Origin: an uncultured Bacilli bacterium
GTDB lineage: Bacteria > Bacillota_I > Bacilli_A > RF39 > UBA660
Assembly (NCBI GenBank): GCA_944371905.1
Contig: CALVYA010000013.1
Coordinates: 1-32,105, forward strand
DNA: 32,105 bases
Direction: 5' to 3'
The first letter of the stretch is position 1, and each line of letters starts with the position of its first letter. The position numbers were made by a program, and so were the translations under genes. Below, piece after piece: positions 11,054 to 32,105 of the stretch. The notes beneath the pieces were generated by a model that worked only from the letters and a program-made list of their open reading frames with translations, was not told where the DNA came from and ran no database searches.

Positions 11054-13555
11054 TTAAGTTGTTTTAATGACATAAGGATTAGAACTTGTTCCACTACCTC
11101 CAGTTATAGTTACATCACTCTCTAAATTGATAACTGGTCGAATTCCATAAGAATTAGTAACGCGATCACCACTTAAATAACCTCCTGCAGCAACCCGATC
11201 AACATAAGTGTAAGTGCCACCAAAAGATACAGGACTAATCGTCCAATAATAGGAACCCGTATACAAATAATAAGTGGTATTAGAAGACATTCCACCTCCA
11301 GCATACATTATTTCATCTGCTGTAATTAACCCAATAGGATAAAATAGTGCTTTATTCCCTTTACTACTACTTGATGTCGTATATAAATCATTACTTCGTG
11401 GACACGAAAATTGTGGTTGATATGTAGTAGTTACTCTATTAGATGGTGCATATGTTGTTACCTGAGAACTATATCCAAGACCACTATAGATACTTCTATC
11501 TCCGCAAAATCCCGCATCTGCTAAATAAGAAGCATAATCCAATAGATTTTCTTCATACCACTGTTCTAATTCTTTTTTTACTACACTAGAAGTAGTATTA
11601 GTATGAGTTGTTGCATAACTACTACTTCCTATCTGTCCATACATATATCCTACATAAGCATTATCATTTGCTTCTTGATTAAACACACCATTTCCTATTG
11701 CTGTAGCTTCTCCTGTTGCAGTAGGAGTCTCTCCTTGGTATATTAATCTAATACTTCCATCTTCATTGATTCTTATAATCCTCCAATAAAGTCCTGCAAA
11801 TTCTACATAGTTATTTTCTACTGCTCCCCTAAAATAATATGTTGTCTTATTCCCTTCTGTATTTGTATTCGTATAATATAATCCTTGTCCATTAGTACTA
11901 CTACTTATTTGACTAAAGTCGATATTACTATCACTTTGTTCATTATTATCTTCTAATATTTGATCTTTTAAATAAACTGTTGGCTTTAGATTACTCTTTA
12001 ATGTCGTTATGACTGGCCTTACTCGATAATACGAAGTTGGCGTTGCTTGCGATAAACTACTCCCATTAAAGTAATATACATTACTTCCTGTATTTGTCAT
12101 CATCCAAAATGGCCCTGGAATCTTTAACCAACTTGGAATATTACTTCCATTCTTCGTTATTTTATCATATTCACCTTTACTTAATAATCTTGCTGTGGTA
12201 GATGCTTCATTTCCACCATTACTTTTTATGGCATTCTTGATATAACTTTCTACTGTATTCTTTACAAAGTATCCTATATTTGTACTACTAAATTGATTAT
12301 ATGTATTACTTCCACTAGTATCAAATCCTCTACTATATGTTCCATAAGTTAATACACTTCCATTACTTGATGCTCCATTCTCACTAATTAAAGTTACCAT
12401 GGCATTTCCTGTTCCACTATCTTTTGTTACATACCATTTTGAACCATCTATTAATTCTACGGAATCTCCTACTTCATACCTTAAATATTTTGATAGTTCT
12501 TCTTTATTCAGCGTGGTAACTGCTCTTAAAGATATACTTTCAGTGGTATCAACTAACTCTATTTTTACTTGGGTTTCATTTATAGTATATGCATAGTATT
12601 TGCCATCTCTCGTTGTTGATGTTAACATTTTTTTACTATTTGTAAGTGATTGTTCACCGCTTATTTTTATTACTTCTCCATCATAATTTTTATTACTATC
12701 ATATTTAAATCCTAATAAGTTTCCTATTTCTTCCATCGTTGGTAATCTTGAATTACTTGCTGTAAGTATAGTTATGTCCATGCCAGGTGGCGGAGTAGGA
12801 ATAGTATATCCTAAAGATACTTCTATATCTGAGTTCATAATTTCGCTCACAGTATTAGAGTGTCTACTAATAAAATCAGTAATAACATCTATTGTATTGC
12901 TACTAATCGTATCATTAGTCTCTATGGTATAAAATATCCTACCTAAACTTGAATATTGATTATCAGATAATGCTATAGTATCTCCTAATTGATATACTAC
13001 ATTTTCTGTATCTGATGTGGAGTCTCCTGAATTTCCTCCTGTTGTCCCACTATTTTCTACATAAATAAAGGTTAACATTAATTCTTTTTTTGTTTCACTA
13101 ATATTCGTTACTCCATTTTTATATTTAATTGTTACTTTGGCTGTATTGGTCTCTCCTGGAGCTAAGGTTGTTACTTCTTCTTCTACTCCACTAATCTCAT
13201 AAGTAATATTACTGTTCTCATCTTCAATTATTTCAATGTCATTTAATTTGGCTGGAATATTCCCTTGATTAGATAAAGTAATAGTATAAGTGATGGTAGA
13301 ACTTGACGTTGGTAAGTTAGCATTTAAGGTTACTGTATTACTTACATAGTTACTACTGATACTTGTAGCACTATTCGTTACCGTATTGGTTACCTTCGTT
13401 ACCTTTACTATCCAACTTCTATCAATACTTGCTATTCCATCTAGTTCTATATATTGACTTAAGGCAGCATACCCTAGACTCATGACAAATACCACAAGAC
13501 ACAAGGACAACACTAGGATTCGTCTTTTTGTAAAGAACCTTTTTATTCTCTTCAT
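11054..13555 (-). CDS. Surface paralog B: exported protein with Ig-like domain and three RPVI (DUF6273/lectin-like) modules
   Basis: 833 aa, same architecture as paralog A. From the export segment (RILVLSLCLVVF...GYAALSQ) through the Ig-like domain to ENVVYQ the two proteins are almost identical. Module 1 then differs strongly (only pieces such as RLPTMEEI are kept), module 2 is partly alike, the linker into module 3 is identical, and module 3 is similar. Cys in GFCGD and FSCP are conserved. The ATG at 13555 lies 9 nt behind GGAG; the TTG at 13564 overlaps the ribosome site. Two candidate promoters lie upstream. No strong terminator follows, only a small TGCTA/TAGCA hairpin near 11030, so read-through into the trhP operon is possible. 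Ligand and role unknown. Confidence 0.85.
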   Translation of the reverse strand: MKRIKRFFTKRRILVLSLCLVVFVMSLGYAALSQYIELDGIASIDRSWIVKVTKVTNTVTNSATSISSNYVSNTVTLNANLPTSSSTITYTITLSNQGNIPAKLNDIEIIEDENSNITYEISGVEEEVTTLAPGETNTAKVTIKYKNGVTNISETKKELMLTFIYVENSGTTGGNSGDSTSDTENVVYQLGDTIALSDNQYSSLGRIFYTIETNDTISSNTIDVITDFISRHSNTVSEIMNSDIEVSLGYTIPTPPPGMDITILTASNSRLPTMEEIGNLLGFKYDSNKNYDGEVIKISGEQSLTNSKKMLTSTTRDGKYYAYTINETQVKIELVDTTESISLRAVTTLNKEELSKYLRYEVGDSVELIDGSKWYVTKDSGTGNAMVTLISENGASSNGSVLTYGTYSRGFDTSGSNTYNQFSSTNIGYFVKNTVESYIKNAIKSNGGNEASTTARLLSKGEYDKITKNGSNIPSWLKIPGPFWMMTNTGSNVYYFNGSSLSQATPTSYYRVRPVITTLKSNLKPTVYLKDQILEDNNEQSDSNIDFSQISSSTNGQGLYYTNTNTEGNKTTYYFRGAVENNYVEFAGLYWRIIRINEDGSIRLIYQGETPTATGEATAIGNGVFNQEANDNAYVGYMYGQIGSSSYATTHTNTTSSVVKKELEQWYEENLLDYASYLADAGFCGDRSIYSGLGYSSQVTTYAPSNRVTTTYQPQFSCPRSNDLYTTSSSSKGNKALFYPIGLITADEIMYAGGGMSSNTTYYLYTGSYYWTISPVSFGGTYTYVDRVAAGGYLSGDRVTNSYGIRPVINLESDVTITGGSGTSSNPYVIKTT
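11854..12089. repeat. 236-bp block identical to 982-1217
   Basis: Second copy of the perfectly conserved module 2/linker/module 3 junction, in paralog B, same orientation. Confidence 0.95.
13215..13387. repeat. 173-bp block identical to 2319-2491
   Basis: Second copy of the conserved Ig-like-domain block, in paralog B, same orientation. Confidence 0.95.
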
Positions 13556-13563
13556 TGTTACCA

Positions 13564-13583
13564 ACTCCGTTTTAGTTTATCTC
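13564..13583 (-). repeat. 20-nt leader element shared with paralog C (21118-21137)
   Basis: Twenty identical bases in the 5' untranslated regions of B and C, including the CGGAG ribosome site. Paralog A lacks it. Confidence 0.85.
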
Positions 13584-19619: not shown

Positions 19620-21110
19620 TTATTCATTAGTTTTTATTACATAAGGATTGGAAATTGTTCCATCGCCTTGAGTAATTTCAACATTAGAGTCCAAATTAAT
19701 TACAGGACGAATACACCTCGAACCACTGACAGAATTATCACTTAAATAACCTGTAGAATAAAGTGCGTCAACACGAGCATTAGAACCATTAAAATAATAT
19801 GGATTCATTGTCCAATAATAAGAATTAAGATACAAGTAATAACTATCATTGCTAATGCTAGGTCGTCCTCCTGCAAATACTACTTCATCTGCCGTAATTA
19901 ATCCAATTGGATAATCTAATGCTTTATTTCCTTTACTACTACTAGAAATCGTATATAAATCATCATTTTGTGAACAGACAAACTGTGGTTGATAAATAAT
20001 CGTTAGTCTATTATATATTTGATAATATGTTTCATTTTTTCCATATCCTAATCCAGTTCCTTTTCCTTCATAAATACTTCTGTCTCCACAAAAGCCACTA
20101 TCGGCTATATAACTAGCATAACTTAATAAGTTCTCTTCATACCATGTATCTAATACTGTCTTGATTGTACTATCATTAATATTGGCATGGGTTTCTTCAT
20201 AGGTGCTGCTTCCAGGTGTTCCATACATATATCCTACATAAGCATTATCATTATTATTACTATTAAATGCACTTTCTCCTATTGTGGCATCTACACCTGT
20301 TGCATCTATAGTTTCTCCTTGGTAAATTAATCTAATGCTTCCATCTTCATTTATCCTTATGATTCTCCAGTAGTATCCTGCAAATTTTACATAGTTATTC
20401 TCTACTGCTCCTCGAAAGTAATATACTGTTTTGTTATCCTCTGTATTTTTATTAGTATAATATAATCCTTTCGTTCCATCTTCTTCACTCGTCTTACTAA
20501 AATCTATATTTGCATCGCTCTGTGGTGTATTATCTTTCAATATTGCGTTTACTAATGTTGGTTTTCCTGTATCTTCATTATCAATATTAGGATCACTTGG
20601 AGTTAATTGTTGTCCATCATCTTGAATACACTCGATATTCATTATGATTTCTTTTGTAGTATCACTTGGTATACTAGTAGCTTCCCTATCAAACTCTACT
20701 ATGATTTTAAATGTCTTACTACCTTTACTTGCTAATCTCTCTTGATTCTGTATTCCTTCTACTGTGTATAAAATAACATAACTTCCTGTTGTTTTTATAT
20801 CTACTGTATTGATAATAGCATCTATACTTCCATTATTGGTAATTGTAATATTATATTCTATCTTATCTCCTGGTTTCTTTAATCCTGCATTAAAAGTTGC
20901 ATTGGTTCCACTATAGGTTGGATTTTCTATATTATAAGCTGTTCCTGTAATATTACTAGTAATAGAAGTTATTTCTATATTCCATGTACTAGTTATATTT
21001 CCTGTTCCGTTAATCGTTAATCTTGTCATAAATGCTGCATACACTACTACCATTATTAATACTGCTATACATAGTATTCCTATCACTATTTTCTTCTTAT
21101 TTCTATACAT
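19620..21110 (-). CDS. Surface paralog C: exported protein with Ig-like domain and one RPVI module, behind a poly-G promoter
   Basis: 496 aa. An N-terminal basic/hydrophobic segment (KKKIVIGILCIAVLIMVVV) ends in YAAF, again reminiscent of TasA/CalY-type export signals. An Ig-like domain follows (about 30-165, containing YNITITNNGSIDAIINTVDI), then a Pro/Asp-rich linker and a single module equal to module 3 of A and B (FRGAVENNYV...YWRIIRINEDGS...RPVINL...NPYVIK). Cys in GFCGD and FVCS are kept. It lacks modules 1 and 2. The ATG at 21110 follows GGAG by 8 nt; the GTG at 21119 overlaps the ribosome site. Transcription is expected from the promoter with an 11-G spacer tract, so expression may switch on and off. 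Confidence 0.85.
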   Translation of the reverse strand: MYRNKKKIVIGILCIAVLIMVVVYAAFMTRLTINGTGNITSTWNIEITSITSNITGTAYNIENPTYSGTNATFNAGLKKPGDKIEYNITITNNGSIDAIINTVDIKTTGSYVILYTVEGIQNQERLASKGSKTFKIIVEFDREATSIPSDTTKEIIMNIECIQDDGQQLTPSDPNIDNEDTGKPTLVNAILKDNTPQSDANIDFSKTSEEDGTKGLYYTNKNTEDNKTVYYFRGAVENNYVKFAGYYWRIIRINEDGSIRLIYQGETIDATGVDATIGESAFNSNNNDNAYVGYMYGTPGSSTYEETHANINDSTIKTVLDTWYEENLLSYASYIADSGFCGDRSIYEGKGTGLGYGKNETYYQIYNRLTIIYQPQFVCSQNDDLYTISSSSKGNKALDYPIGLITADEVVFAGGRPSISNDSYYLYLNSYYWTMNPYYFNGSNARVDALYSTGYLSDNSVSGSRCIRPVINLDSNVEITQGDGTISNPYVIKTNE

Positions 21111-21117
21111 CCTTATC

Positions 21118-21137
21118 ACTCCGTTTTAGTTTATCTC
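21118..21137 (-). repeat. 20-nt leader element shared with paralog B (13564-13583)
   Basis: Second copy of the identical 5' untranslated element with the CGGAG ribosome site. Confidence 0.85.
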
Positions 21138-21143
21138 ATATAC

Positions 21144-21173
21144 ATTATACCCCCCCCCCCAGGAAAATTTCAA
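21144..21173 (-). promoter_or_regulatory. Promoter of surface paralog C with poly-G spacer, candidate phase-variable
   Basis: Minus-strand -35 TTGAAA (21168-21173), 18-bp spacer made of TTTTCCT plus 11 G, then -10 TATAAT (21144-21149). A change of one or two G would move the spacer through 16-19 bp, around the 17-bp optimum of sigma-A promoters. Confidence 0.8.
21150..21160 (-). repeat. Homopolymer of 11 G (C on the plus strand)
   Basis: The longest G/C run in the window; the next longest are two of six. It lies wholly inside the promoter spacer of paralog C. Confidence 0.95.
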
Positions 21174-21267: not shown

Positions 21268-22002
21268 CTATATAAATACAGTTATTAATATTAATATCAC
21301 ACCTAAGATAATTCCTGATATAGCAACTTTCTTATTTTTCATTTCTAATATCTTAGGAAGTAATTCAAATACACTAATATAAATTAACATACCTAAAGTA
21401 ATGCTTAACAATACTCCAAGAATTATTTCATTAACTAAAATACCACTTAATACTGTCATAATTAATCCACCTACAAAAGTAGATAAGGATACTAATAAAA
21501 TAATTGCCCAAGTTTTTTTAGCATTATTATTTGCCTTATAGAGAGTAGATGCTATTACCATTCCTAGTGGTATATTGTGAAGACCTACTCCAATTGATAT
21601 TAAAAGTCCTGTTTCTAGCGAACTACTTACCGTAGTATAAATAGCCATACCCTCAATAATGTTATGAAGAATTAATGCAATACTAGAAATTAATCCAATA
21701 TGACTCAATTCTTCTTTTTCTTTTCCATCATGATCTGGAATGAATAAATCTAATACTTTCAAAAGAATAATTCCTGTTACTACACCTAATACTGCTAAAA
21801 AAATTCCTAAACCGAAACTAAATTCAGTAATAAAAATCTCTTTCACTTCAGGAATTAAATCAACAAACATTAACATAACCATAACAGCAAAAGCTAAACT
21901 AATAGAAAAATAAACAAAGTTTTTATTATTTTTACTTAAAAAAGTAATTAGTGCTCCAACTACAATGAATATTCCTAAGCCTAGTGTAATCAATAATTCC
22001 AT
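21268..22002 (-). CDS. ZIP family divalent metal (zinc) transporter
   Basis: 244 aa, about eight membrane spans. The metal-binding signatures of ZIP spans 4 and 5 are present: HNIIEG (113-118) and HNIPLG (142-147). A His/Asp-bearing cytoplasmic loop PDHDGKEKEELSH precedes span 4. Probably imports zinc or related metals, ZupT-like; specificity is not predictable. It starts 16 nt after uppP behind AAGGAG and shares its transcript and terminator. Confidence 0.92.
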   Translation of the reverse strand: MELLITLGLGIFIVVGALITFLSKNNKNFVYFSISLAFAVMVMLMFVDLIPEVKEIFITEFSFGLGIFLAVLGVVTGIILLKVLDLFIPDHDGKEKEELSHIGLISSIALILHNIIEGMAIYTTVSSSLETGLLISIGVGLHNIPLGMVIASTLYKANNNAKKTWAIILLVSLSTFVGGLIMTVLSGILVNEIILGVLLSITLGMLIYISVFELLPKILEMKNKKVAISGIILGVILILITVFI

Positions 22003-31229: not shown

Positions 31230-32105
31230 TTAATCCACTTTTATTGTATAAGGAGCATCCTTGGTTCCCTCTCCATTAGAAACCAATATTGAGGTTTGCA
31301 AATTAATAACAGGTCTTATTCCATACGATTCTATATTAGTATCATTTCTTATTTCTGCATTTTCGCTATATGAATAAATATAGACATTTGCTCCGTTAGA
31401 AAATGGTGACATCAACCAATACTTAATTCCAGCATTTAAATAATTAGTTTCGTTAGCAACTGTCCACACATTACCAGCAAATGCTACTTCATCCGCTGTA
31501 ATTAAGCTAATTGGATAATCTAAAGCTTTGTTTCCTTTAGCACTACTAGAAGTCGTATATAAATCATTATTGTTAATACATTTAAAGATTGGGCTTTTAT
31601 TAACATACAATCTAATTCTTGGCTGATACATGGTATTTTCATCTCCATATCCTAATGAAGTATCCCACGTATCATAAATACCTGGTTGACTTGTCATACT
31701 TCTATCTCCACAAAAACCTGCATCTGCTAAATAAGAAGCATAACTTGATAAATTTTCTTTATACCACGTATCAATAACTTGTTTTATTGTGCTGTCATTC
31801 GCATTGGTATGAGTCTCTTCATAGGTATCACTACCTGGAGTCCCATACATATATCCTACATAGGCATTATCATTTGAATGACTATTAAAAGCACTACTTC
31901 CTATCGTTGCGTCACTTCCTGTAGCATCTATACTTTCTCCTTGATAAATTAATCTAACAGATCTGTCTTCATTGATTCGGACTATTCTCCAATAGAATCC
32001 CGCAAAATATACATAATTGTTCTCTACCGCTCCCCTAAAATAATATACCGTCTGCCCTCTTTCTGTATTTGTTGAAGTATAATATAATCCTTTCGTTCCA
32101 TCCTG
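31230..32105 (-). CDS. Surface paralog D (partial, 5' end beyond the window)
   Basis: The reading frame is open from the stop codon to the right edge: 291 residues, beginning QDGTKGLYYTSTNTE and containing YYFRGAVENNYVYFAGFYWRI when I translate past the first internal ATG. This is the module 3 of paralogs A-C. It includes the Cys pair (GFCGDR, FKCINN), NDLYTTSSSAKGNKALDYPI and the end GIRPVINL...DAPYTIKVD. An internal ATG at 31850 is not the start. No clear terminator follows before the rpsP promoter, so read-through into rpsP is possible. Its promoter, and any G run in it, lies outside the window. Confidence 0.85.
   Translation of the reverse strand, partial: QDGTKGLYYTSTNTERGQTVYYFRGAVENNYVYFAGFYWRIVRINEDRSVRLIYQGESIDATGSDATIGSSAFNSHSNDNAYVGYMYGTPGSDTYEETHTNANDSTIKQVIDTWYKENLSSYASYLADAGFCGDRSMTSQPGIYDTWDTSLGYGDENTMYQPRIRLYVNKSPIFKCINNNDLYTTSSSAKGNKALDYPISLITADEVAFAGNVWTVANETNYLNAGIKYWLMSPFSNGANVYIYSYSENAEIRNDTNIESYGIRPVINLQTSILVSNGEGTKDAPYTIKVD

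Follow-up and report, generated by a model that had tools for sequence, protein, structure and literature searches.

Poly-G tracts in the promoter spacers of surface-protein genes suggest phase variation in uncultured Bacilli

The uncultured Bacilli described here probably live in the gut, and expression of their surface proteins is probably raised and lowered through the gain or loss of single G residues in a promoter. In the window, as we call the whole 32,105-nucleotide stretch of DNA analysed here (contig C13 of an AT-rich MAG of 1.294 Mb, genome G000), a run of 11 G lies between the −35 and −10 hexamers of an exported-protein gene, paralog C, and the same layout recurs throughout this genome and in many other genera. 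The best explanation, which we regard as quite likely, is transcriptional phase variation via slippage of the G tract in the sigma-A −35/−10 spacer.

Promoter of paralog C

The minus-strand promoter upstream of paralog C occupies exactly the positions reported in the preliminary description (21144–21173), and is composed of the −35 hexamer TTGAAA (21173–21168), which is conserved among the cassettes of this genome, the non-G part of the spacer, TTTTCCT (21167–21161), which varies between genera with the tract position kept, the G11 homopolymer (21160–21150), and the −10 hexamer TATAAT (21149–21144) adjoining the tract. On the plus strand, positions 21144–21173 read ATTATA CCCCCCCCCCC AGGAAAA TTTCAA. 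A homopolymer of at least 8 residues thus stands between recognisable −35 and −10 hexamers, and the 18-bp spacer is close to the functional range, ordinary promoters having 16–18 bp. Further upstream, an A/T-rich segment (21206–21174) containing TGTCAA (21205–21200), found in most cassettes of the genus, is a candidate upstream element. A Shine-Dalgarno GGAG (21122–21119) is embedded in a conserved ACGGAG, and the start codon is likely the ATG at 21110–21108, 8 nt past GGAG, in preference to an in-frame GTG at 21119. The distance from the promoter to the start of the exported protein is 27–34 nt.

As had been remarked before, G11 is striking in such AT-rich sequence: it is the sole run of at least 8 G/C in the 32-kb window, with an expectation of 0.00 in 100 dinucleotide shuffles. 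A promoter scorer detected the promoter with 11 of 12 matches; since shuffled sequence also yields ~3.8 promoter-like hits, the consensus alone is no proof, and the comparative evidence carries the case. On the same strand, the gene upstream ends at 21268, and an AT-rich hairpin (inverted repeat) with a T-run comes next, so that the promoter serves its own unit. In a survey of inverted repeats around the promoter, no shared arm pair bracketed it, and only weak AT-rich or terminator-like pairs were seen; the flanking repeats thus give no convincing sign of an invertible promoter.

Paralogs in the window and their predicted folds

Paralog C (19620–21110, minus strand) has an N-terminal membrane anchor, an Ig-like domain (approximately residues 47–170), and a C-terminal C-type-lectin-like domain, and we infer that its family resides at the cell surface. 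The other members in the window, all on the minus strand, are paralog B (11054–13564), which has kept the cassette and lost the G tract (TTGAATTTTGCTTGAAAGAAGAGGAGATAAT), paralog A (176–2665), with a promoter without a G tract, and paralog D (31230–32105), which is truncated by the contig end with its promoter out of view. Paralogs A and B are mosaic genes, near-identical in their N-terminal halves, divergent in the middle, and with a common C-terminal domain, suggesting recombination among paralogs. Paralog D matched DUF6273 (PF19789) at 22.3 bits, below the Pfam gathering cut-off of 23.5, and weak matches were found in 6 of 36 relatives.

Modelled with 36 relatives, the C-terminal domain of paralog C folds confidently (pLDDT, 95) as a C-type-lectin-like domain. 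Among solved structures, its best match was the N-terminal domain of the Thomasclavelia ramosa IgA peptidase (PDB ID: 9qa6; Z-score, 13.5 over 199 residues), followed by many CTLDs at Z-scores of 4–6; the C-terminal domain of Lcl also shares the fold (Z-score, 6.0). The likeness to the IgA peptidase is one of the fold of its binding domain only, whereas the window protein has no peptidase region. Such a fold makes binding of glycans or proteins likely for the modelled domain. This domain is also present in proteins under poly-G control in another genus (G232 and G122). The full-length model of paralog C, based on 16 paralogs, was poor outside the Ig-like domain, and Foldseek returned only weak Ig-like matches for it.

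Poly-G cassettes across the genome

Tracts of at least 8 G occur 19 times in the genome, with TATAAT directly 3′ in 15 and the reversed pattern in none. Nearly all 15 share the cassette TTGAAA-AWTTYCT-Gn-TATAATG (n = 10–14 away from contig ends), and the following gene, wherever visible, is a member of the membrane-anchored paralog C family, which has 69 protein matches in the genome. The tract is therefore one of about 20 cassettes, and not particular to paralog C as originally presented. Alignment of the cassettes shows conservation of TGTCAA ~75 bp upstream, the −35 and −10 hexamers, and ACGGAG. Among the other paralogs, some 17 are without a G tract, 4 have A-interrupted tracts, and 1 has a degenerate tract. 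The interrupted tracts have spacers of 18, 18, 18, and 19 bp (18, 19, 20, and 20 bp in sister species), showing no clear difference from pure tracts, and were thus discarded as candidate locked-on promoters. On the opposite strand of the conserved upstream block, TTGACAGGGTATCATATTCTATAAT is found with 13-bp spacing in six cassettes (e.g. C4:50713–50737 (+) and C12:12079–12103 (+)); this spacing is too short for a promoter, and it may be a regulator site around TGTCAA.

The mutS1 gene is intact in this genome (1024 bits against a cut-off of 641.7), as is mutS in nearly all genomes checked, so that a mismatch-repair defect is rejected as the cause of slippage. At G000:C4:46468–50685 (L154), the intact mutS follows a same-strand, poly-G-controlled paralog at a distance of 183 bp. 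A possible coupling of the two genes was set aside: a promoter-like site of its own (TAGAAA-17-TATAAT) precedes mutS, although the scanner passes no terminator between them.

Distribution among relatives

A strict pattern, TTGAMA-N(6–16)-G8+-TATAAT, was searched with its reversed form as a control. It was found in 34 of 385 genomes of the family, belonging to 25 of 150 genera, with up to 20 copies per genome, and its reversed form in none; most relatives are without it. These counts are lower bounds, because the sister species G002, whose −35 hexamers are TTGCCA or TTGCAA in place of the TTGACA of most other genera, escapes the pattern: 28 of its 35 G-tracts adjoin TATAAT upstream of the same gene family. 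In a phylum-level sample, 14 of 392 genomes carried the strict layout, distributed among other families of the class. Single matches were found in Lachnospiraceae, Peptoniphilus/Aedoeadaptatus, and others, often upstream of signal-peptide proteins, and some of these may be due to chance. In 15 carrier genomes, TATAAT adjoins 153 of 286 G-tracts (chance, ~1 in 4,096) and the reversed arrangement adjoins none; poly-C was seen at the same position in a single tract, at a contig end, among 20 genomes. The flanks vary between genera with the layout constant, and one recent duplication is therefore not the source.

Most of the downstream genes encode exported, membrane-anchored, or N-methyl pilin-like proteins, and their identity varies by genus. 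They include anchored proteins with repeats (G374 and G232), exported proteins encoded in an expanded tandem array (G300), membrane anchors bearing phage-tail-like collar domains (Gp10_C; G240), and proteins with List_Bact repeats (G212). In two genera, the poly-G promoter is instead upstream of ABC-transporter ATPases (L054 in G243 and L055 in G139), and the targets are thus not only surface adhesin-like proteins. The architecture, the exported-protein target, and the parallel with Neisseria proposed earlier all hold, and the survey considerably strengthens the proposal of a phase-variable promoter.

Two further arrangements were observed. In G008, of the same family (L288–L293), all 26 tracts are CGGGGGGGG. 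Of six copies read, five have TTTCATAAATC-G8-TACTTTTAATRAGATATAATGACACTAG, or a near variant of this element, ahead of membrane-anchored proteins; n is exactly 8 in these, and the tract lies further upstream than a spacer would. It is possibly a different, fixed G-box promoter element. In the sister species G004 (L341, contig C1), the tract is down to GGG with an 11-bp spacer, and the promoter is probably dead through deep contraction.

Tract lengths and spacers

Across genera, 56 of 70 cassette types have spacers of 18–20 bp, with a mode of 19 (28 of 70). Ordinary TTGACA/TATAAT promoters of the own genome have spacers of 17 (11 cases), 16 (6 cases), or 18 bp (3 cases), and none of 19 or more, whereas its poly-G promoters mostly have 19–21 bp, only that of the window gene having 18 and only that at C20:12.1 kb having 17 (Mann-Whitney p = 3 × 10⁻⁶; 14 tracts, of which one is truncated by a contig end). 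Many copies may therefore be weak or off. The lengths fit a state in which only one or two copies of the genome are on, most being weak or off; alternatively, they fit a shift of the spacer optimum to 18–19 bp by G-tract DNA, which has fewer degrees per bp. The latter agrees with the mode of 19 across genera, and with 11G being the strongest porA variant, porA being compared by G count. Tract length and non-G spacer length show weak compensation across genera (r = −0.30, p = 0.08; permutation p = 0.04).

Length variation here refers to differences between paralogs. Among close cassette pairs, 13 of 32 differ in n, and one-G differences are found between cassettes with 0–1 substitutions in 60 flanking nucleotides (12/11 in G240, 9/10 in G374, 12/13 in G000, and 11/10 in G002), giving direct hints of instability of the tract. 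Near-uniform lengths (n = 9 in 8 of 8 cassettes of G122 and 7 of 8 in G300) count against free switching everywhere.

Mechanism and alternatives

According to the slippage mechanism that we propose, replication slippage would insert or delete single Gs, each shifting the −35/−10 spacing by 1 bp and the helical phase by ~33 degrees, and promoter strength would therefore step up or down, reversibly, in individual cells. As ~20 copies of the same cassette would drive the membrane-anchored, C-type-lectin-like family, each switching independently, a clonal population would hold many surface combinations. Slippage should be slower with intact mutS; mismatch-proficient Neisseria still switch. The expectation that slippage by one G should change transcription strongly is too strong for a single step, judging from meningococcal porA, in which going from 11G to 10G costs ~2-fold in surface expression and 9G costs 13-fold (PMC3639595).

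It is conceivable, though unlikely, that the G tract has a fixed structural or regulatory role in the spacer, acting through G-tract geometry, a non-template G-quadruplex, or a G-rich-DNA-binding regulator, with selection holding its length and no switching. The strict location of G on the non-template strand, the near-uniform n in G122 and G300, the exact G8 at another promoter position in G008, and the 18–20-bp spacers retained by interrupted tracts would all suit such an element. However, n ranges from 10 to 14 among near-identical G000 cassettes and several pairs differ by one G, and a pure homopolymer, inherently unstable from 10 G upwards, would be unnecessary for a fixed element.

The cassette might have been duplicated along with its gene family, leaving the tract a functionless passenger; this is very improbable. 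Cassettes of the genus do share ~130 bp of upstream sequence and the gene family, and decayed copies exist (a 25-bp spacer with a broken start at C1:47.9 kb, and G3 in G004), but the layout is shared by at least 25 genera whose flanks are unrelated and whose gene families differ, and the spacer remains near the functional range. Still more improbable is that the cassette serves chiefly for recombination, as a site of gene conversion among paralogs, with the tract as a by-product. Paralogs are indeed mosaic, with common N-terminal halves in A and B, and many contigs break at the cassette; the exact spacer position and the single-strand bias are left unexplained, however, and the flanks differ between copies in many genera. 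Mosaicism may well coexist with switching.

An assembly or sequencing artefact has a practically negligible probability: about half of the tracts in the genome are within ~110 bp of a contig end, as repeats by themselves can account for, but the window tract sits 21 kb inside its contig and the layout recurs in independent assemblies produced by many MAG projects, so that assembly noise is rejected for internal tracts and accepted only for those of n = 17–18 at contig ends, which, with the odd sequence beyond them, look like noise.

It is quite possible, though short of probable, that many genera of the uncultured Bacilli, with scattered members elsewhere in Bacillota, possess an undescribed promoter class, in which a non-template G8–G14 adjoins TATAAT, G-tract geometry moves the spacer optimum to 18–19, and the switch module is reused for whichever surface-protein family the lineage expanded, giving combinatorial surface variation.

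Comparison with known systems

Textbook examples of homopolymer spacer promoters come from a few pathogens and concern one gene each; here, the same device is deployed across whole genomes, in at least 25 genera of uncultured Bacilli with small genomes, where it drives lectin-like, pilin-like, and anchored protein families specific to each lineage. If the proposed switching is true, cell-surface bet-hedging would be routine in commensal-like lineages that were never suspected of combinatorial surface variation, and would be readable from existing metagenomes via G counts. The cassettes also offer a natural experiment on the effect of a G tract on the best promoter spacing.

In Mycoplasma hyorhinis, a relative of Firmicutes, the vlp system likewise comprises several surface-lipoprotein paralogs under individual switching promoters, but it uses poly-A near the −10 in a mycoplasma without mismatch repair, whereas the cassettes described here combine poly-G with intact mutS. 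The porA promoter of Neisseria meningitidis resembles them in having poly-G between −35 and −10 (n = 9–11) and an outer-surface target (PMC3639595), and differs in being that of one proteobacterial gene, against the promoters of ~20 paralogs per genome in the uncultured Bacilli; the output of porA is graded with tract length (PMC3639595), while the Bacilli cassettes are known here from sequence alone. In Neisseria fetA/frpB, poly-C between −10 and −35 varies from C10 to C14 between strains (PMC5320596); the principle of switching by spacer length is the same, but a single receptor gene is concerned and the Bacilli are nearly without poly-C at that position. Helicobacter canadensis has G13–G16 tracts upstream of exported proteins, with length ranges at the read level (PMC2823697), although their promoter position is only "possible" and most tracts are intragenic. 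In the open-access literature, we found no earlier description of such promoters in this lineage, in Firmicutes or MAGs, or as a per-genome battery. The principle itself is already known from porA and fetA; its use in this lineage, and as a per-genome battery of such breadth, would be new.
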